From a virus: a stretch of 64,000 nucleotides of DNA. The position numbers and the translations under genes are program-made. Below, in pieces: positions 1,769 through 15,869 of the stretch; positions within the stretch are counted from its first letter, which is position 1; every line of letters starts with the position of its first letter. The notes under the pieces were generated by a model that ran no database searches, was not told where the DNA came from, and was given only the letters and a program-made list of their open reading frames with translations. The DNA lies in the IMG/VR virus record IMGVR_UViG_3300037010_002253, positions 17,363 to 81,362 of that record; one strand, given 5' to 3'.

Positions 1769-2250
1769 GCCGCCTTCGTCGAAGCCTTCTCCGCCGGCTT
1801 CGCCGCCTTCTTGTCACCGTTCCCCCTCCGACCGACCGGCTTGACGCGCCAGTACATGAGCTCGCCCCGCGTCATCACGGTCATCGGGCCGAGCTTCGGG
1901 TGAACGAAGGTCGTGGCGCCACCGAGGGACTCGAGCAGGTCGCTGAGGAACGCCTGGTTCTCCTCCTCCATCAGCTTGATCCCAGCGAAGTTCTTGTCGA
2001 GCTTCTCGATGAGCCTCGCCTGGGCCGAGGTGGGGTCCGTGACGACGCGCGGGCGCGCCTCGCCCTTCGGTGCGCGCGCCTTCTTCTCCTTCGGGGGCGC
2101 CGCCTTGGCCGCCGCGGCCGGCTTCTTGGTGGTCGAAGTGATGGGGACCTTCTTCTTGATGACGGGCATTTTCTTCCCAGTCTTGGGGGCGGCCTTCTTG
2201 GTCGACTTCACCGAGAGCTTGCCCACCTTCTTTTTGGTATTGATCTTCAT
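1765..2250 (-). CDS. Lys/Ala-rich basic protein, histone H1-like tail
   Basis: 161 residues. The first 65 are a Lys/Ala/Pro/Thr-rich tail of the kind seen in histone H1-like and other nucleic-acid-binding proteins. Residues 70-145 form a more ordered domain containing the helix LIEKLDKNFAGIKLMEEENQ and a GELMYWRVKP segment, followed by another basic tail. DNA binding or condensation is a reasonable inference; no family is recognised. ATG start with an AGAAGG ribosome site. It precedes the Glu/Asp-rich protein in the same transcript, so opposite-charge partners are conceivable. Confidence 0.7.
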   Translation of the reverse strand: MKINTKKKVGKLSVKSTKKAAPKTGKKMPVIKKKVPITSTTKKPAAAAKAAPPKEKKARAPKGEARPRVVTDPTSAQARLIEKLDKNFAGIKLMEEENQAFLSDLLESLGGATTFVHPKLGPMTVMTRGELMYWRVKPVGRRGNGDKKAAKPAEKASTKAA

Positions 2251-2265
2251 GCGAGCCTTCTTCTT

Positions 2266-2787
2266 TCAGTCCTCGAGTTCGAGAAGATGGCGGTCGAGGT
2301 CGAGGCCCTCAACCACCGCCGTGAGACACGCGACGACCTGTGCCCTCACTCCGGGATGCTCCGTCGCCTCCGGATTCGGACACGAGTAGCAGTTCCCCCG
2401 GCAGCCGAGGTTGTCGATCGACTGGTGGAGGGAACTGTAATGCGAGTCGATGACTTCCACAAGACGATCTTGCAAAACGAGGAGCTTTTTCTTCTCCTTC
2501 TCCTCCTCGTCACCACCGCCGGCAGCCACGGTAGGTGGAACGCTCCCCTTCCGCCCGAAAAGCTGGATGACCTGCGCCCCGCCCACCATGTCACTAGTCG
2601 TCGAGCTGGTCGTCGTCGTCTCGAACGACGAGATCGTAGGCCGGTTCCGGTTCACCACGTCCGCGAGAGCCTCGGCCAGCAGAAGAACGACCAGTTCGTC
2701 TGTCTTGACGTGCAGGCCGCGCGCTTCCGCGACCGCTACCGCCGCCGCCAGCACTGTCTCGCGCTCGTTCTGTGTCCAGTCGAACAT
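2266..2787 (-). CDS. Hypothetical protein with CxxxCxxC motif
   Basis: 173 residues, ATG preceded by AGAGGA at good spacing. The N-terminal 50 residues form two Ala/Leu-rich helices, followed by a Thr/Ser-rich linker, a coiled-coil-like basic helix and a cysteine cluster (CRGNCYSC, about residues 130-137) that could bind a metal. The C-terminus is helical. No family is recognised. The N-terminal coding region overlaps the end of the preceding gene by 194 nt in another frame. Confidence 0.65.
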   Translation of the reverse strand: MFDWTQNERETVLAAAVAVAEARGLHVKTDELVVLLLAEALADVVNRNRPTISSFETTTTSSTTSDMVGGAQVIQLFGRKGSVPPTVAAGGGDEEEKEKKKLLVLQDRLVEVIDSHYSSLHQSIDNLGCRGNCYSCPNPEATEHPGVRAQVVACLTAVVEGLDLDRHLLELED

Positions 2788-2986
2788 TGTATAGCGTCCT
2801 CTTGATCTGGTTTGCTTGTCTGGTGGAAATCGAGAGCTTGTACTTGATCGCTCCTGGGATGTTGCACACCTTACACTCTCGGTATCGAGCGAGGGCGCAC
2901 ACCTCGCGGGACTTCTGGTGTTCGTACGCCCAGCACCACAAGTACAGGGGCAGGCGGAACTCCTTCGCCTTTACCTCTTCGACCAT
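2594..2986 (-). CDS. Small Cys-containing protein overlapping the next gene
   Basis: The ATG at 2986 with GGAGG four bases upstream is preferred over a TTG at 3046 that abuts folE. The first 65 residues look like real protein (LPLYLWCWAYEHQ, then a C-x2-C pair in YRECKVCN). The last 65 are Gly/Arg-rich low complexity lying inside the next gene in another frame, and may be an unselected read-through tail or the product of a sequence error. Function unknown. It fills the 255-nt space between folE and the next gene. Confidence 0.5.
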   Translation of the reverse strand: MVEEVKAKEFRLPLYLWCWAYEHQKSREVCALARYRECKVCNIPGAIKYKLSISTRQANQIKRTLYNVRLDTERARDSAGGGGSGRGSARPARQDRRTGRSSAGRGSRGRGEPEPAYDLVVRDDDDQLDD

Positions 2987-3042
2987 GTCGCCTCCGTCGT
3001 CCGTAAGTGACTCCAAGATATTACCCCGGGACGGACCGACAA

Positions 3043-3693
3043 TCAAGAGGTTTTCTTTACCCTCGCGAGGTGCTGGTTGAACTCAGACTTCACGTCGGGC
3101 CGTGTCGCGACGCCTCGGAGGGCGGCCGTGGAAGTGATGGAACCCGCTTTCTGCACGCCGCGCATGATCATGCAGTAGTGGGACGCCTCCATCACCACAA
3201 AGACCCCCGCCGGATCCACGAGGTCAACGAAGAAGTCAGCGACCTCTAGCGTCAGCCGCTCCTGAGTCTGGAGCTTGTGTGAGAAGAAGTCGACGATCCG
3301 CGGGATCTTCGACAGCCCGACGATCCGCTTCCTGGGGATGTACCCGACGTGTGCCACGCCGACGAAGGGGAGCATGTGGTGGGCGCAGAGAGACGCGAAG
3401 GGCACGTCCGCCACCATCACGATCTCGTTGTACCCGTCGGCGTCGAAGGTGGTCAGCTTCGCAAGGAACTCCGCTCGCTTATCGTCGCGGTACGACGAGA
3501 GCAGCTCGTCGTAGTACATACGAGCCACCCGCATCGGGGTGTTGGCGAGGTCGAGGTGAGCGGACTCTAGGATGGGAAGCCCATCGAGGACCTTCTCCAA
3601 CGACTCTGATAGCCGGTTCAGTGTCTCGTCGCGGTCGTCGGAACCTGCATCTCGCGTCGAAGGCTGCTTCGCGCGTCGCCGAGTAGCTCGCAT
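3043..3693 (-). CDS. folE: GTP cyclohydrolase I
   Basis: Converts GTP to 7,8-dihydroneopterin triphosphate, the first step of preQ0 synthesis. The zinc and active-site signatures are present: SLCAHHMLPFVG, and SHYCMIMRGVQKAGS near the end. The ATG at 3693 with AGGAG upstream gives 216 residues; a GTG at 3735 would add 14 residues that are not typical of the family. It clusters with queE and queD, which indicates a 7-deazaguanine role rather than folate synthesis. A small gene overlaps its 5' end. Confidence 0.93.
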   Translation of the reverse strand: MRATRRRAKQPSTRDAGSDDRDETLNRLSESLEKVLDGLPILESAHLDLANTPMRVARMYYDELLSSYRDDKRAEFLAKLTTFDADGYNEIVMVADVPFASLCAHHMLPFVGVAHVGYIPRKRIVGLSKIPRIVDFFSHKLQTQERLTLEVADFFVDLVDPAGVFVVMEASHYCMIMRGVQKAGSITSTAALRGVATRPDVKSEFNQHLARVKKTS

Positions 3694-3844: not shown

Positions 3845-4546
3845 TCACCTCAAGGAGTAAAGGAGCTTGTGTGCTTGGGGGAGTACACGCACATCTGGTG
3901 CACTTGTCAACCCAACCCGCCGCAGGCTGACGAAGTATTCGGTGACTTCTAGAAGAAACTCCCGCCCCTTGCTGTACTCGGGCTGCACGACGAAGTGAGG
4001 GGGGTTTCCTGCGCTACCCCACAAATCCTTCACGTCCTTGAACAGCTCGTTCGCATCGTGAACTTCCTCCCGAGTCGAGACGACGATCTTGATCTGCGTC
4101 TCCCGCTTCCGTCCGTGGTCCCGCTGGGTCACGAGAAAGCGGTACAGGTCCGCCACCATCCGCGGATGGTGCAGCTTCGGGGAGATGGAGAGGAGGTCCG
4201 CCGCGAAGCAAAGCTCCTGGTGGAAGAGGCTCCCCTGGGTTTCGACGGTGACGTGTCGCCCGGTGAGCCCGAGCCGGTACGCCAGCGTCGTGCACTCCTC
4301 GGCCTGTAGGAACGGGTTCCCTCCTGTGATGACGACGTGACGGATCCCGTAGGACTTCACGTCCTGCACGACTTCATCGACCGTCCTCTCGGCGCCGGCC
4401 TTCGCGTCCCACGACCCCTTGGTGTCGCACCAGGAGCAAGTGAACTCGCACCCTTGCAGGCGCACGAAGACGCTGGGCATCCCGACCAGGACGCCCTCGC
4501 CCTGGACCGTGGGCCAGCAGTACCCCTCGAAATCTACGACGCGCAT
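3845..4546 (-). CDS. queE: 7-carboxy-7-deazaguanine synthase (radical SAM)
   Basis: 233 residues. QueE rearranges 6-carboxytetrahydropterin to 7-carboxy-7-deazaguanine. The SAM-cluster motif C-x3-C-x2-C is seen in LQGCEFTCSWCDTKGSWD, preceded by the family's PTVQGEG signature, with TGGNPF and VETQGS further on. The ATG at 4546 overlaps the queD stop (ATGA) and has AAGGAG eight bases upstream, so the in-frame extension to 4585 is not needed. Length and motifs are normal for an active enzyme. Confidence 0.93.
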   Translation of the reverse strand: MRVVDFEGYCWPTVQGEGVLVGMPSVFVRLQGCEFTCSWCDTKGSWDAKAGAERTVDEVVQDVKSYGIRHVVITGGNPFLQAEECTTLAYRLGLTGRHVTVETQGSLFHQELCFAADLLSISPKLHHPRMVADLYRFLVTQRDHGRKRETQIKIVVSTREEVHDANELFKDVKDLWGSAGNPPHFVVQPEYSKGREFLLEVTEYFVSLRRVGLTSAPDVRVLPQAHKLLYSLR

Positions 4547-4947
4547 CAGGCCAGCTCCTTCGTGGGAAGGACGATCTGCGCCCACGAGGTCTCCGTCTCG
4601 AAGACGGTGACGGATTCAAGGCCCACCTCCGCGTCCGCATCCATCGCCAGGAGAAGGCCGCAGACCTTGTCCACGATCCACGCCGCGATGTTCTCGGCGC
4701 TGGGGTTCTTCGCCTTGAACTCCGGCAGGTCGTTCAGGGTCTTGTGGTCGAGGGCGTTCCGCACGGCCTTGAGCACGTTGAAATCGAGGAGGAACCCGGT
4801 CTCGTCGAGCTTCTCCCCGTACAGGACGATCTCCGCCTTGTAGCTGTGCCCATGTAGGTTTCCGCAGGGGTGGTCGTTGGGCAGGCCCTTGAGGACGTGG
4901 GCGGCTTCCCACCTGATCGTCTTCCCGATTCTGTAGAGAGCGTTCAC
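4546..4947 (-). CDS. queD: 6-carboxy-5,6,7,8-tetrahydropterin synthase
   Basis: 133 residues, of usual size for QueD/PTPS enzymes. Zinc ligands His17, His32 and His34 sit in AAHVLKG and NLHGHSYK, and the catalytic cysteine is in HPCGN. It converts dihydroneopterin triphosphate to the QueE substrate. Its start overlaps the end of the upstream NlpC/P60-like gene and its stop overlaps queE (ATGA at both ends), so queD-queE-folE form a translationally coupled block. Confidence 0.93.
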   Translation of the reverse strand: MNALYRIGKTIRWEAAHVLKGLPNDHPCGNLHGHSYKAEIVLYGEKLDETGFLLDFNVLKAVRNALDHKTLNDLPEFKAKNPSAENIAAWIVDKVCGLLLAMDADAEVGLESVTVFETETSWAQIVLPTKELA

Positions 4948-5537
4948 TTGTCTTGCTCCTGTTCCCCATCCGGGAACGGCAGCTTCTCGATGTTGACGAT
5001 CTCCCGCACCATGCGGTGAATCGTCCCGTGTTCATCCCAGAGCACGCCGAAAGAATAGAACCAGCGGTGCTCGGATTCCAGGATGATCTCATTCCCTTCC
5101 GCGTCCCGCTGCCCGCCTTCGATGACGCGCACCTTCCAGCAGGCGGACTCCTTGTCCTTCGTGACCTCTTCGACGAGGAAAACGTGTTCATCCCCACCGC
5201 CATCCGAACCACCGCCGACGCGAACCCAATCACCAGGCTCCGGGAAGTCGTACCGCTCTCGAACCGCGTTGCTCGCTCGCGCGATGGTGGACAGGTTCGC
5301 CATCGCGAACCCCATGGTGTAGTAGCGGAGGACAGGGGACTGGAGTCCCATGAGCCGCAGGAACCCCGCGATGACGAGGGCGCAGCCGGAGGTCTTCTTG
5401 CCGGCGTAGTAGTCACGCATCCTCGGAGGGTCTTCCGGGGCCATCAGGAGGTCGACGTACCTCTCGCGTTGCTCCGTGACCCCGCAACCGATGAACAGCC
5501 GTGCTACCTCGACGATTCTTTCCCTGATGGTCGGCAT
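4944..5537 (-). CDS. NlpC/P60-like cysteine peptidase candidate
   Basis: 197 residues. A Cys in SGCALVIAGFLR, a downstream PGDWVRVGGG strand and a His in DEHVFLVEEV follow the Cys-PGD-His order of NlpC/P60 and CHAP papain-like amidases. This makes it a candidate peptidoglycan hydrolase or endolysin. There is no signal peptide or cell-wall-binding domain, and it sits next to queD rather than to the holin candidate. The ATG is preceded by AGGAAAGG. A non-lytic role is possible. Confidence 0.6.
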   Translation of the reverse strand: MPTIRERIVEVARLFIGCGVTEQRERYVDLLMAPEDPPRMRDYYAGKKTSGCALVIAGFLRLMGLQSPVLRYYTMGFAMANLSTIARASNAVRERYDFPEPGDWVRVGGGSDGGGDEHVFLVEEVTKDKESACWKVRVIEGGQRDAEGNEIILESEHRWFYSFGVLWDEHGTIHRMVREIVNIEKLPFPDGEQEQDK

Positions 5538-5588: not shown

Positions 5589-6281
5589 ATGCAAATCGCC
5601 TTGCTCAGCACCTCGAAGAAGGTACCGCTCGCGCTTCTCAGCAAGATCGCTTACGCGACCACCAAGCAGCTCAAGGAGTTCTGCGCGGATTGGGATCTCG
5701 CCGCGTCGTCCGTCATCCCCTGGGATGCGTCCGACCGCGCCTCCGCGCCGCCCACCCGCATCTGGATCGTCGACAGCGCGGCGGACCTACAGAACGCCCT
5801 CGGCGCCCACTGGATCGACCCCGACACGGGTCTCCCGACCGGCAAGGTCCTGGTGGACGTCATCCTCGCAAACGGGGGCACCCTCACCGATGGGCCCGTC
5901 TCCGTCTCCGCGATCGCGTCCCACGAGATCCTCGAGCTACGCGCCGACCCTTCCGCGAATATCAACGTCGCGATGCCCGACGGGAGAATGGTCGCCTACG
6001 AGTCGGCCGACCCTGTCGAAGACGGGGGGTACCCAGTCATCCTGCACGACCGCTCGCTCGTCTGGGTCTCGAACTACGTGCTCCCCGACTGGTTCAACGT
6101 GGGAAGCAAGACTCGTCGCTTCGACAAGATGGGGCTGCTCAAGGCGCCGTTCACAATGACCGACGGCGGCTACATGATCATCGACAACCAACCCGTCTTC
6201 GGCTTCGGGGTCCCAGAATGGAAGAAGGAGGCGAAGCTCACCCCCTTCTCCCGTACCGGACGCCGTCTCGTGACGGCCTAG
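5589..6281 (+). CDS. Lone plus-strand gene with HExxE motif
   Basis: 230 residues from an ATG with AGGAG at 9-nt spacing. It is the only convincing plus-strand gene in the window. Residues 110-130 contain ASHEILELRADP, an HExxE motif followed by Asp-Pro that resembles metal-binding helices of proteins of unknown function in actinobacteria and phages. The C-terminal half is beta-rich with many Trp/Tyr/Phe. It diverges from the NlpC/P60-like gene across only 51 nt and converges on the next minus gene with a 4-nt overlap, the layout of a separately transcribed cargo gene (moron). Function unknown; a metalloprotease-like or virion role is possible. Confidence 0.8.
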   Translation: MQIALLSTSKKVPLALLSKIAYATTKQLKEFCADWDLAASSVIPWDASDRASAPPTRIWIVDSAADLQNALGAHWIDPDTGLPTGKVLVDVILANGGTLTDGPVSVSAIASHEILELRADPSANINVAMPDGRMVAYESADPVEDGGYPVILHDRSLVWVSNYVLPDWFNVGSKTRRFDKMGLLKAPFTMTDGGYMIIDNQPVFGFGVPEWKKEAKLTPFSRTGRRLVTA

Positions 6282-6517
6282 AAGAGCGACTCGTTCGCAA
6301 CCTTGTAGGCGAACTGGGCGACCTGCCCAAGGCGATGCTGGATGATCGTCAACTCCTCCTGGGCGTCATGCAGGTCCTCGGACAGCTCCAGGTACGCCGC
6401 CTGGAGCTGTTTGAGGTCCAGGCCGGCGATCTCCGCCGCGGCCTTCGCCTTGTTGAACTTGTTGAACTTGATCTCGGGGGCCGTGAAGAACGCCTTCTTG
6501 CTTGCCACGTGAATCAC
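6278..6517 (-). CDS. Small helical protein
   Basis: 79 residues from a GTG that overlaps the stop of the Cys/Lys microprotein gene (GTGA), implying translational coupling. The sequence is nearly all helix with a heptad-like pattern (LDLKQLQAAYLELSEDLHDA) and probably forms a coiled coil. No family is recognised. Its 3' end overlaps the 3' end of the plus-strand gene by 4 nt. Confidence 0.65.
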   Translation of the reverse strand: MIHVASKKAFFTAPEIKFNKFNKAKAAAEIAGLDLKQLQAAYLELSEDLHDAQEELTIIQHRLGQVAQFAYKVANESLF

Positions 6518-11871: not shown

Positions 11872-12987
11872 CTACCTCTCCACCAGCGCCTCACGGATGT
11901 CCGCGCGGATCGCCTCTTGGATGTCCTCGTGTTCGCGCAGAATCGCAAGAAACTGCGCGGCGCTCGACGCCTCGATGCCATACCCCTCTAGGTTCGCCCC
12001 CCGCTGCTCGAGGAGGTCGTACCCACGCGCGAGGTTGAACAACATGTCGGGGACGTCGAGGCCGGGCTCGATCTCGCTCGACCACGCGCCCTTGCCGCTC
12101 CCGCCGCTCTCCGCCCACGGTAGGAAGTAGAACGAGAACTTCCCCACCCGCTCCGGCGTCGCGGTCTTGTTCTTCACGCAGCGCACGTTGAAGGTCCGCG
12201 AGACGATCTTGCGGTGCTCGGACTTGTCCTTCTCGGTGTACCGCAACTCCCCTTTCTTGAACTGAAGGGCGATGCTTTTCCAGTGAAGGATGCTACGCGC
12301 CTGGATCGGTTCCGGTTCGGGGGTTCCAGTCGGGGACCACTTCCCGATCGCGCTGCGCACCTGAGAGATCCCGAGGATGGCCGTGTTCGACCCGCCCTGG
12401 TTCATCGCCGCGTAGGCCCGCCGCATGACACGCCCCCACATCTGCGAGGACCCGCCGCCGCCGTACGCCTGCTTCTCGATCCCCGCCGACGCCTCCGTCG
12501 CCGTGCCGAAGCTCTGGAACGAGTCGAGAGCCAGCAGGTCGATGAGACCAGACTCGAACATGGTCATGGCCACCTCCATCGAGGTGTCTCCCATCCCCAC
12601 GTCGACCATGATGAGCTTGTCTACGTTCACACCGAGCTTCCTCGCCCAGGCTGCGTCGAACCCCTCGCGGAAGAACCCAGCGGCGAGGCCGCCGTTCCTC
12701 TGGGTCTCCGCAATCGCGAGAAGCATAGCGAGAGACTTCCCGCTCGACTCCTCGCCGTGCAACTCCGTGAGCATCCCCTTCGGGTACCCGCCGCCCGTCA
12801 GGACGTCGAGCGTGTCGATCCCCGTGGGGATTCGCTGGACGGGCGGGTGGTCGGTCCCGAGGTAGACGTGACCGTCCTCGAGCTCCCTGTTGATGGTCCC
12901 CATCATCGCCTTGAGCTGCTCCATCCTCGAGGGGACCCTCTCGGTGGCGGCGACCTTCTTCGTCTTCGTGACCTTCTTCTTCGGCAT
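11872..12987 (-). CDS. RecA-like recombinase
   Basis: 371 residues. Walker A is HGEESSGKS after the family strand MLTELHG, and Walker B is IDLLALDSF. The GISQVR segment after the AILG strand matches the RecA/UvsX core. A basic N-terminal tail (PKKKVTKTKK) precedes the core. It promotes strand pairing in phage recombination and repair, acting with the ssDNA-binding candidate and the nucleases downstream. It lies just after the polymerase gene in the transcript. Confidence 0.92.
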   Translation of the reverse strand: MPKKKVTKTKKVAATERVPSRMEQLKAMMGTINRELEDGHVYLGTDHPPVQRIPTGIDTLDVLTGGGYPKGMLTELHGEESSGKSLAMLLAIAETQRNGGLAAGFFREGFDAAWARKLGVNVDKLIMVDVGMGDTSMEVAMTMFESGLIDLLALDSFQSFGTATEASAGIEKQAYGGGGSSQMWGRVMRRAYAAMNQGGSNTAILGISQVRSAIGKWSPTGTPEPEPIQARSILHWKSIALQFKKGELRYTEKDKSEHRKIVSRTFNVRCVKNKTATPERVGKFSFYFLPWAESGGSGKGAWSSEIEPGLDVPDMLFNLARGYDLLEQRGANLEGYGIEASSAAQFLAILREHEDIQEAIRADIREALVER

Positions 12988-12995
12988 GGTGACTC

Positions 12996-15869
12996 CTACT
13001 GCTTCGCCTTACCCCAGGACTCCCCGAACCCGATCTCCGCTGGCGTGTCGACGCGGAGGTCCTTGAAGCCGTACACGCGGTACGGGTGGCTGACGTACTC
13101 CTCGATGATCGGCCGGCACTCCTCCTCCGCGCCCTTCGGGACGTTGAACAGCAGCTCGTCGTGAATCTGAAGGGTCATCTCGACGCCCAGCTCCTCAAGT
13201 CGCTTGTCCGCGTCGATGAGCAGCATCGACATCTTCAATAGGTCGGCTGCACTTCCCTGGATGACGTAGTTGAACGCCTGCCGCTCCGCCCGCCTGCGCA
13301 ATCCCATCTCGTCGGAGTTGATGAAGGGGATGGCCACCCGACGCCGGAGGATGGTCCTCACGAACCCGTCCTGGCGAGCTCTGCGCTGGATCCGGTCGAT
13401 GCCCGACCTCATCCCCGCGTAGAGGTTGAAGAAGCCCTGCACCGCTTCCTTCCCTGCCTGCTCGCTGACGCCCGCCATCTGCGCGTACGTGCTCGGACCC
13501 ATCCCGTACAGGGTGTTCCCGACGACGCGACCCTCAACCGTGAAGCGATGCCGAGGACCTGCGTTCACGATGTCGTAGACCCGGGCGACCTGTTTCGGTT
13601 GTTGATAGAATAAGTGGTCAGCCTCAGATTCTGCGGCGAGTAGTGTCCATCGTTGTCGATCCGATCGAACACCAAGCCTTTGAAGGTAGAGTCCGACCAC
13701 TTCTTCAACGCCCAGCGTACGAAGTGCTCCCTCGACCGAAACAAGACCTTGATGCCCCTCCCCTTGTACCGGGGGGACGAGACATGCGTGTCCCTCTCGC
13801 ACCTCTGTACCATCGCGGCGTACCGACGACCGAGCATCGCCGCCCGGGAATCGTGGTACTTCTGCCCGCGCTGGCATCGGCAGTTCGTAGTTTTCCTCGC
13901 GCGAACGTTGTCCACTAGAAGCCAATGCTTCTTTTCGCACGCGGAGCACTCCGCCTCTACGTACCTTCTCGCCCTCGACCCCGGCCTCGCGCGCCGCTCG
14001 ACCTCGCCGGTCAAACGCATCGTACCCAACGGCAGCTTCCCCAGCTCCGCCAACAGCAAGTCGTCCGAAACGAACCGTGGATGCTGCGAGCCCGAACGGA
14101 ATCTTGTGTCCTTCATCGGTGTAGACCTCGTGGCCGAGAGTTGCGGTGAGACCATCGTAAGTGAGGACGGCCTTTTCACCCTTGAACACCACCCCCTCAT
14201 GGTGGACCCACTCTACCCCGTCCCATAGAAGATCGGAATCCTGAACTCGCTCGATTGGGACGAGGCCACGCTTCGTGAGAACCCGCTGGCCCTCCGCGAT
14301 GCAGCCGAAGTTGATCGTCTTGCTGCGCCGTCGCGCCTCGGGGAACTTCGCCTTGACCTCGTGCAGCAGGTCCCCGTCCACAGTCCGCGCTCCGACCCAG
14401 CGACGGACCTCCGAATCGATCTCGGTCGCCGTCAGGGAGTGCAAGTCCCACCCCCGGTTGATGGCGTTCAGCATCACCGCGTCGTTCGTGAAATGCGCCG
14501 CAAGACGCAACTCGATCTGGCTCAGGTCGATGTCCCCGACCACGCATCCATCGGGCGCGATGAACGCCTCGCGAATGTGGAAGGCGTCGTTCTCCATGGA
14601 CGGGATGTTCTGGAGGTTGTGCGCGGAGGACGACAAGCGAAGGGTCGCAGTTCCCGTCTGCTTGAGGTTGGTGTGGACCTTCCCGCCGTACTCACCGGCC
14701 GAGTGGATGAACGGCTCCACGTACGTTCCGCGCAACTTGTCCAGCTCGCGGTACGCCAGGATGATGTCCGCGATCTGCTTCGCCACTGGGTCCTTGAAGC
14801 TGGTCAGGGAATCGTCATCTGTCGACGGGAGGCCCGTGGGGGTTCGCTTCGCGATGGGCGTTCGGAGGTGGACCTCGAAGAGGTTCGCTACCTGCTTGGA
14901 CGACCCGAGGTTGAAGTCGGCGAGCACGTCATTAGAGACGCCGTACTTCTGGCAGGTGCGGAGGAACTCACTGACCGTATCCTCGATCTTCGCGTCGACC
15001 TGAAGCTTCATCTCCTCGAGCCGCACCGTGTCCACCCGACACCCGCGCCGCTCCATGCGGTAGAGGACCTGGGTGTAAGGTAGGTCGAACTGCTTGTAGT
15101 AGTCCCAGTAGGATTTGCCGTTGACCCACTCCTCCGCCTCCAGGGCGGCCCTAAGGACCTCGAACCCCATCAGGGAGAAGAGCGGGTCTTTGCAGGCGTA
15201 CGTGATGAGACGGTGGACGCCCACAGGGTCCTGCACCACCTCGTCGAGGTGGGGGACCTCAAACGTCTTGCTAGGTGTCCCGTCTCGCTTGAGCTTCGGC
15301 CGCTTGAACGTCTCGCTGTACTCGCGGATGGCACCCCACGTCTCGCCGAAGAGGGTGATGAGCTTGTACCCGAAGTACCTCTCCATGATGTGTTTCAGGC
15401 CGTGGTACATCTCGCCGCTCGCGGACAGCGTGTCCATGACCTGCGTGTCCCCCGCGAACCCATCGAGCGTGATCCCGTGGTTCCCGCAGACGTGCATGTC
15501 GTACTTGAGGTTCGACCCGACCTTGCCGATGTCGGGGTCCTCCAAGACGCCCTTGAAGTGGCGCAGGGTCCCTTCCCACGGCCCCCAGTTCGGGACGAAG
15601 ATCCGCGAGCCAGGAGCGCCTGGGTCGTACCCGCACGAGAACTGTGCGCAGATCGCGCGCGCCTTTCCTTTCGCGTGCTCCTTCCTCGGGTCGCATCCGA
15701 CCGTCTCGGTATCGAAGCCGACGACTTCCGCGTCCCGGATCATCCGAAGGGCTTGCCCAACCTTCTCCGGGGTATCAGTGATGAACGCCCCATCGACCTC
15801 GGGCAGCGTCGGTCCGCTGTAGTCGCGCCGCTTCTTGCGGCCGAGGTTCAAGTGCCACTGGTTTCCCAC
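12996..15869 (-). CDS. Family A DNA polymerase interrupted by an intein
   Basis: 957-residue precursor (694 residues after splicing) from a GTG with AAGGAG upstream. A 3'-5' proofreading domain comes first: VVGFDTETVG (Exo I), SNLKYDMH (Exo II) and YACKDPL (Exo III). The polymerase domain follows, with motif A VVGDIDLSQIELRLAAH, motif B (O-helix) split by the intein after RRRSKTINFG and resuming at TLYGMG, and motif C QIHDELLF. Joined, motif B reads KTINFGTLYGMG, the normal family form, so splicing is required for activity. This is the replicative polymerase, grouped with helicase, primase and ssDNA-binding genes. Confidence 0.95.
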   Translation of the reverse strand: MGNQWHLNLGRKKRRDYSGPTLPEVDGAFITDTPEKVGQALRMIRDAEVVGFDTETVGCDPRKEHAKGKARAICAQFSCGYDPGAPGSRIFVPNWGPWEGTLRHFKGVLEDPDIGKVGSNLKYDMHVCGNHGITLDGFAGDTQVMDTLSASGEMYHGLKHIMERYFGYKLITLFGETWGAIREYSETFKRPKLKRDGTPSKTFEVPHLDEVVQDPVGVHRLITYACKDPLFSLMGFEVLRAALEAEEWVNGKSYWDYYKQFDLPYTQVLYRMERRGCRVDTVRLEEMKLQVDAKIEDTVSEFLRTCQKYGVSNDVLADFNLGSSKQVANLFEVHLRTPIAKRTPTGLPSTDDDSLTSFKDPVAKQIADIILAYRELDKLRGTYVEPFIHSAGEYGGKVHTNLKQTGTATLRLSSSAHNLQNIPSMENDAFHIREAFIAPDGCVVGDIDLSQIELRLAAHFTNDAVMLNAINRGWDLHSLTATEIDSEVRRWVGARTVDGDLLHEVKAKFPEARRRSKTINFGCIAEGQRVLTKRGLVPIERVQDSDLLWDGVEWVHHEGVVFKGEKAVLTYDGLTATLGHEVYTDEGHKIPFGLAASTVRFGRLAVGGAGEAAVGYDAFDRRGRAAREAGVEGEKVRRGGVLRVRKEALASSGQRSREENYELPMPARAEVPRFPGGDARSSVRRDGTEVREGHACLVPPVQGEGHQGLVSVEGALRTLGVEEVVGLYLQRLGVRSDRQRWTLLAAESEADHLFYQQPKQVARVYDIVNAGPRHRFTVEGRVVGNTLYGMGPSTYAQMAGVSEQAGKEAVQGFFNLYAGMRSGIDRIQRRARQDGFVRTILRRRVAIPFINSDEMGLRRRAERQAFNYVIQGSAADLLKMSMLLIDADKRLEELGVEMTLQIHDELLFNVPKGAEEECRPIIEEYVSHPYRVYGFKDLRVDTPAEIGFGESWGKAKQ
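13565..14116 (-). CDS. HNH homing endonuclease nested out of frame in the intein
   Basis: 183 residues in the +1 frame relative to the polymerase, from an ATG at 14116 with GAGG nine bases upstream to a TGA at 13565. A zinc-finger-like set is Cys57, Cys60, Cys79 and Cys81 (CSACEKK...CRC). The C-terminal half carries the phage HNH/AP2-type pattern RYKGRGIKVLFRS, then the catalytic-like loop DRIDNDGHYSPQNLR and NNRNR. The gene starts inside intein block B and ends inside block F, so it sits where an in-frame endonuclease domain would normally be. It probably cuts intein-free polymerase alleles to drive homing. Confidence 0.85.
   Translation of the reverse strand: MKDTRFRSGSQHPRFVSDDLLLAELGKLPLGTMRLTGEVERRARPGSRARRYVEAECSACEKKHWLLVDNVRARKTTNCRCQRGQKYHDSRAAMLGRRYAAMVQRCERDTHVSSPRYKGRGIKVLFRSREHFVRWALKKWSDSTFKGLVFDRIDNDGHYSPQNLRLTTYSINNRNRSPGSTTS
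14126..14129 (-). promoter_or_regulatory. Internal ribosome-binding site for the nested endonuclease
   Basis: GAGG within the codons for His-Glu-Val of intein block B, nine bases before ATG 14116. It supports independent translation of the nested endonuclease from the polymerase mRNA. Confidence 0.55.

Follow-up and report, generated by a model that had tools for sequence, protein, structure and literature searches.

We judge, with a probability of about 0.86, that the polA gene in the window, the 64,000-nucleotide stretch that we analyzed from an IMG/VR virus record of 81,362 bp, carries a mobile intein in polymerase motif B, and that the HNH homing endonuclease of this intein is a separate gene, overprinted on it in the +1 frame and translated separately. 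Judged from the relatives we surveyed, this out-of-frame layout is a stable architecture that occurs widely, and no isolated oddity.

The intein lies in a family A DNA polymerase. The translation of 12996-15869 (minus strand) matches Pfam DNA_pol_A (3.7e-87) and DNA_pol_A_exo1. As an initial sequence-only reading of this DNA had stated, the polymerase-intein frame is open over 957 codons, with no stop across the intein. The ORF immediately downstream of polA (11872-12987) looks RecA-like by eye. The features are listed in Table 1.

Table 1. Features of the intein-containing polA gene and its nested HNH gene (window positions)
Feature	Position	Strand	Remarks
PolA precursor ORF containing the intein, family A DNA polymerase	12996..15869	-	GTG start, 957 codons
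N-extein, ends ...SKTINFG, polymerase motif B	14304..15869	-	
Intein, Cys1 to Asn263, in frame with PolA	13515..14303	-	263 codons; profile matches, alignment, AF2, PDB fold matches
N-terminal Hint splicing domain, blocks A and B	14079..14303	-	T55 and H58 invariant
Shine-Dalgarno-like GAGGT, inside block B codons (HEV)	14125..14129	-	8 nt before the HNH ATG
Nested HNH endonuclease ORF, +1 frame, ATG to TGA	13565..14116	-	183 aa; TGA in block F codons IVN
Zinc-cysteine and HNH core of the nested gene	13589..13948	-	profile match
C-terminal Hint splicing domain, blocks F and G, VYDIVNAGPRHRFTVEGRVVGN	13515..13580	-	
C-extein, TLYGMG..., rest of PolA	12999..13514	-	

Every splicing motif is in the PolA frame, including Cys1, the block B T..H, the block F VYD, and the terminal Asn; motifs and alignment together bear out the earlier placement of Hint blocks A, B, F, and G in this frame. 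The insertion point is motif B, with flanks INFG|TLYGMG. This is one codon earlier in the motif than in the nearest relatives (INFGF|CYGMG). Residues of a class 1 intein are present (Cys1, Asn263, and Thr at +1), and T55, H58, and D244, of the block B TxxH and block F, are invariant in the intein alignment. The window has Gly as the penultimate residue, in block G, where many relatives have His and others Ser; it departs here from the penultimate His of class 1. A penultimate His is common, though not universal, among inteins.

Structure prediction with AF2 gave the Hint parts of the intein frame pLDDT values of 95-98 and the overprinted middle values of 38-66. Foldseek matched the intein model to the gp41-1, NpuDnaE, DnaB, and RecA inteins with probabilities of about 1.0 but E values of at least 2.5e-3, and nearly all PDB fold matches were inteins or other Hint domains. 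The intein was not recognized in a Pfam search, NCBIfam intein_Nterm matched just three of 35 intein members, and PDB sequence searches returned essentially nothing.

The HNH ORF lies entirely within the intein, with its ATG (14116) in codons of the N-terminal splicing domain and its TGA (13567-13565) in those of the C-terminal one. We rejected a start at 14200, the first ATG of the long ORF, as the downstream ATG with its Shine-Dalgarno (SD) site better fits the HNH homology. The encoded protein carries the expected zinc cysteines (Cys 57/60/79/81) and DRIDNDGHYSPQNLR, both as originally read, and C57, C60, and C79 are invariant in the alignment of HNH relatives. It matches the PHROG HNH families phrog_374 (E = 2.4e-23) and phrog_3377 (4.2e-18), and its AF2 model has a mean pLDDT of 89.9. 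Foldseek of this model against the PDB gave no significant match, Pfam HNH_3 was recognized in one of 36 HNH members, and a single-sequence search of viral contigs detected no close relative of the window HNH. All specifics of the sequence-only reading held up: the ATG, GAGG site, and TGA that it had assigned to a complete +1-frame HNH are in place, and our analysis supports an intact splicing frame and an independently coded endonuclease that overprint each other for about 550 nt.

As had been suggested with that reading, we looked for the same layout in related polymerases. Searching with a profile built on the N-terminal Hint block, we retrieved 80 viral loci and, with annotated phages added, obtained 79 distinct inteins. 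An HNH was present in 63 of these, at offset +1 in 50, at +2 in 13, and in frame in none; in each of the 63, a single frame runs unbroken through HintN and HintC. The 63 inteins have common ancestry and are not independent cases. In a first search of relatives, the HNH frame had likewise differed from that of the Hint blocks in all, including the cultured Salmonella phage f18SE. Among seven loci in bacterial genomes, the six that bear an HNH all have it out of frame. When the search was based on the HNH, all 25 Hint-adjacent HNHs were out of frame (16 on contigs new to the survey, with duplicates among these 16 possible). For the other 55 HNHs, which had no Hint nearby, just one had a spanning ORF in another frame, and this was shorter (169 aa). 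Cultured phages with an out-of-frame HNH include Salmonella, E. coli/Shigella, and APSE phages, and the Hint family of the window intein was found mostly outside actinophages.

Two origins had been proposed for the layout, a transient intermediate and two compensating indels, and neither survives this survey. The layout is the same in all the HNH-bearing relatives examined, and its two offsets are both fixed within deep HNH clades. A single metagenomic contig could hold errors, and compensating indels or sequencing errors could make an HNH that was once in frame look nested, if the frame were shifted and then restored around it. We consider this exceedingly improbable and rejected an indel artefact on the strength of the relatives: the identical layout occurs in 63 distinct inteins at two offsets, cultured phages sequenced independently by many groups agree, and no in-frame relative was found among the HNH-bearing inteins surveyed.

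To estimate how often the splicing frame would be open by chance, we shuffled the synonymous codons of the HNH core and counted stops in the splicing frame. Across the 63 inteins, we observed no stops where 291 were expected; the third frame contains 428. For the window alone, a mean of 4.2 stops is expected in the polymerase frame, which was open in 0.55% of shuffles (P(0) = 0.0055). The shuffles and the third-frame stops rule out chance openness in GC-rich DNA, and do so also at 40-50% GC.

We also compared codon-position rates in the two frames, another check suggested from the sequence. In pairwise comparisons of the overlap, position 3 of the HNH codons carries most substitutions. In all but the closest pairs, residue changes are about 2-3 times more frequent in the splicing frame than in the HNH. 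In the most extreme pair (L071 and L074), all 12 of 12 substitutions are at HNH position 3. In 11 inteins of cultured Jerseyvirus and Dhillonvirus phages, variable sites number 30/16/66 by HNH codon position, and 32 of 138 HNH residues are variable versus 72 of 137 in the splicing frame. These 11 inteins contain no splicing-frame stops and 12-16 third-frame stops. Because substitutions concentrate at position 3 and HNH residues vary less, the HNH is, by this comparative evidence, the selected protein in the overlap, with the splicing frame there only kept open. The AF2 models, in which the HNH is confident and the overprinted middle of the intein disordered, agree with constraint falling on the HNH.

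These data bear on a reading in which the intein is a splicing-only fossil, the HNH a decaying remnant, and the open frame a product of chance in a GC-rich genome. Such DNA does contain many chance ORFs, and an HNH can be lost, as in the L030/L032 pair described below. Nevertheless, we regard this reading as very unlikely, given the purifying selection on HNH codons in relatives, the avoidance of splicing-frame stops also at 40-50% GC, and a window HNH that retains all zinc cysteines and the motif residues and is modeled confidently by AF2.

We examined start signals to see how translation of the nested gene may begin. In the +1 class, 35 of 50 inteins have an HNH-frame ATG whose SD complementarity reaches 5 nt or more, compared to 14.8 expected when the Hint codons are shuffled, and 3 of 50 have an SD and ATG in the third frame. 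The signal lies within Hint codons, for example KEVI.Y.G, and in one +1 subgroup the internal start gives a clean HNH-like N terminus, MHHRA.DITG. We do not take it as proof of translation. Since 7 of 16 HNH-less inteins, some of which may be deletion derivatives, show such a signal, it is supportive but not decisive. In the 13 inteins of the +2 class, we found no convincing common strong start. The HNH stop is within HintC codons in 62 of 63 inteins. From this start and stop anatomy, internal initiation of the HNH is likely.

Alternatively, the HNH could be made without an internal start, by programmed ribosomal frameshifting that fuses it to the N-terminal Hint half. In many cases the HNH frame stays open far upstream into HintN, and the +2 class lacks a strong common SD and start, both as this mechanism would allow. 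We nonetheless think it unlikely, because most +1 members have a strong SD and ATG at corresponding places, the MHHRA.DITG subgroup has clean HNH-like N termini at the internal start, and two offsets would require two kinds of shift.

The HNH tree has three deep clades, on which the offset (+1 or +2) needs two changes versus 12 for shuffled labels. An intein-free PolA (L103), 52% identical over 675 aa, has a matching empty site, ILFG|TFYGMG. Two loci, L030 (4422-4826) and L032 (4186-5121), carry the same intein with identical flanks and differ solely by a 531-nt deletion (177 codons). This deletion spares the SD, the ATG, and the tail of the HNH, takes out most of that gene, and leaves the splicing frame unshifted. 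Because of this pair, which could also reflect contig chimerism, the HNH appears dispensable while the splicing frame is kept.

Some PolA genes contain two nested-HNH inteins. In L006, these are at 4229-5110 and 5606-6385, one at offset +2 and one at +1; in L040, they are at 861-1784 and 2181-3086, both at +1 and with HNHs of different clades. In a Lachnospiraceae contig, a free-standing HNH ORF (L098:4393-4899) lies directly 3′ of a polymerase that itself carries a nested HNH.

The exteins comprise at least three PolA sites and apparently, by eye, helicases too. The out-of-frame layout is probably not confined to polymerases. The extein flanks of L081, L087, L090, and L092 resemble, by eye, SNF2-type helicases and not PolA. 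In the Jerseyvirus Ent1, the annotation of the neighboring helicase intein (L008:4951-5186) gives an ordinary LAGLIDADG endonuclease, which makes for a contrast within one genome. In GenBank, the Jerseyvirus polymerase intein is annotated as "encoding splicing domains", with the HNH unmentioned, and APSE-1 P46 (L013:2931-3353), annotated without function inside the DNA polymerase P45, corresponds to the nested HNH.

We propose that most ribosomes would read straight through the polymerase frame, in which the overprinted stretch would become about 150 residues of disordered linker joining the Hint halves. From its motifs and fold, the Hint domain is predicted to excise itself and join INFG to TLYGMG, restoring the polymerase. 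Other ribosomes would start inside the intein at the ATG at 14116, 8 nt downstream of GAGGT. As the start and stop anatomy and the codon-position constraint suggest, they would make a free 183-residue HNH protein ending at the TGA in the block F codons. During co-infection, this protein would cleave polA alleles that lack the intein, and repair would copy the intein in. Comparison of relatives shows that selection keeps the sequence of the HNH protein but, across the overlap, only the openness of the splicing frame. The overprinted layout is standard for the phage intein family of the window, inherited within each of the three deep HNH clades at no fewer than two offsets.

The window intein has features of several known systems. 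Like canonical inteins with an in-frame LAGLIDADG or HNH endonuclease, it has a Hint domain, Cys1 and a terminal Asn, insertion in a conserved active-site motif, and an endonuclease between the Hint halves; it differs in that the endonuclease is its own gene in another frame and the in-frame filler is disordered. In the fractured genes of split inteins, a free-standing endonuclease gene lies between the halves. The window shares with these an endonuclease predicted to be a separate protein, but its extein-intein ORF is unbroken, one ORF of 957 codons and not two. Group I introns can contain an internal HNH ORF that is independent of the host-gene frame, as is the endonuclease ORF here; with the intein, removal is at the protein level, so the host frame must stay open.

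Nearest to the window among published systems is the ShiLan element. This hidden out-of-frame HNH in a phage DNA methylase is explicitly not an intein (Arsenault, Gosselin, Gogarten 2025, PMC11855218). It has no detectable self-splicing domain and no ribosome binding site, and is presumed to remain in the protein (PMC11855218). The same paper cites a preprint on actinophage inteins for overlapping frames (PMC11855218). In both ShiLan-type elements and the window, an HNH gene is embedded out of frame in a host gene whose own frame stays open. In contrast to ShiLan, a complete Hint domain flanks the window HNH, and an SD-like site is present. The same group's preprint, on actinobacteriophage inteins of "non-canonical architecture", reportedly may describe out-of-frame endonucleases in inteins. 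Our literature search found no description of an out-of-frame HNH inside an intein, with possible overlap from that preprint.

Inteins are normally described with the endonuclease as an in-frame domain and, because of this, splicing and homing have been studied as functions of one polypeptide. We think it fairly likely that, throughout a large clade of phage inteins, the homing endonuclease is obligately encoded out of frame. This would be a third arrangement for combining protein splicing with a nuclease, besides the in-frame domain and the free-standing gene. The arrangement would be old, with three deep HNH clades and at least two offsets, maintained by selection for the free nuclease, and a source of mini-inteins through frame-keeping deletions. 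Many GenBank "DNA polymerase" records, including those of well over a hundred Salmonella phages, would hide an unannotated nuclease gene. Overprinting would uncouple the nuclease from splicing, so that the nuclease can be expressed, regulated, mutated, or lost with no effect on splicing; the splicing frame in the overlap need only stay free of stops. These inteins would offer a natural system of overlapping genes under very unequal constraint.
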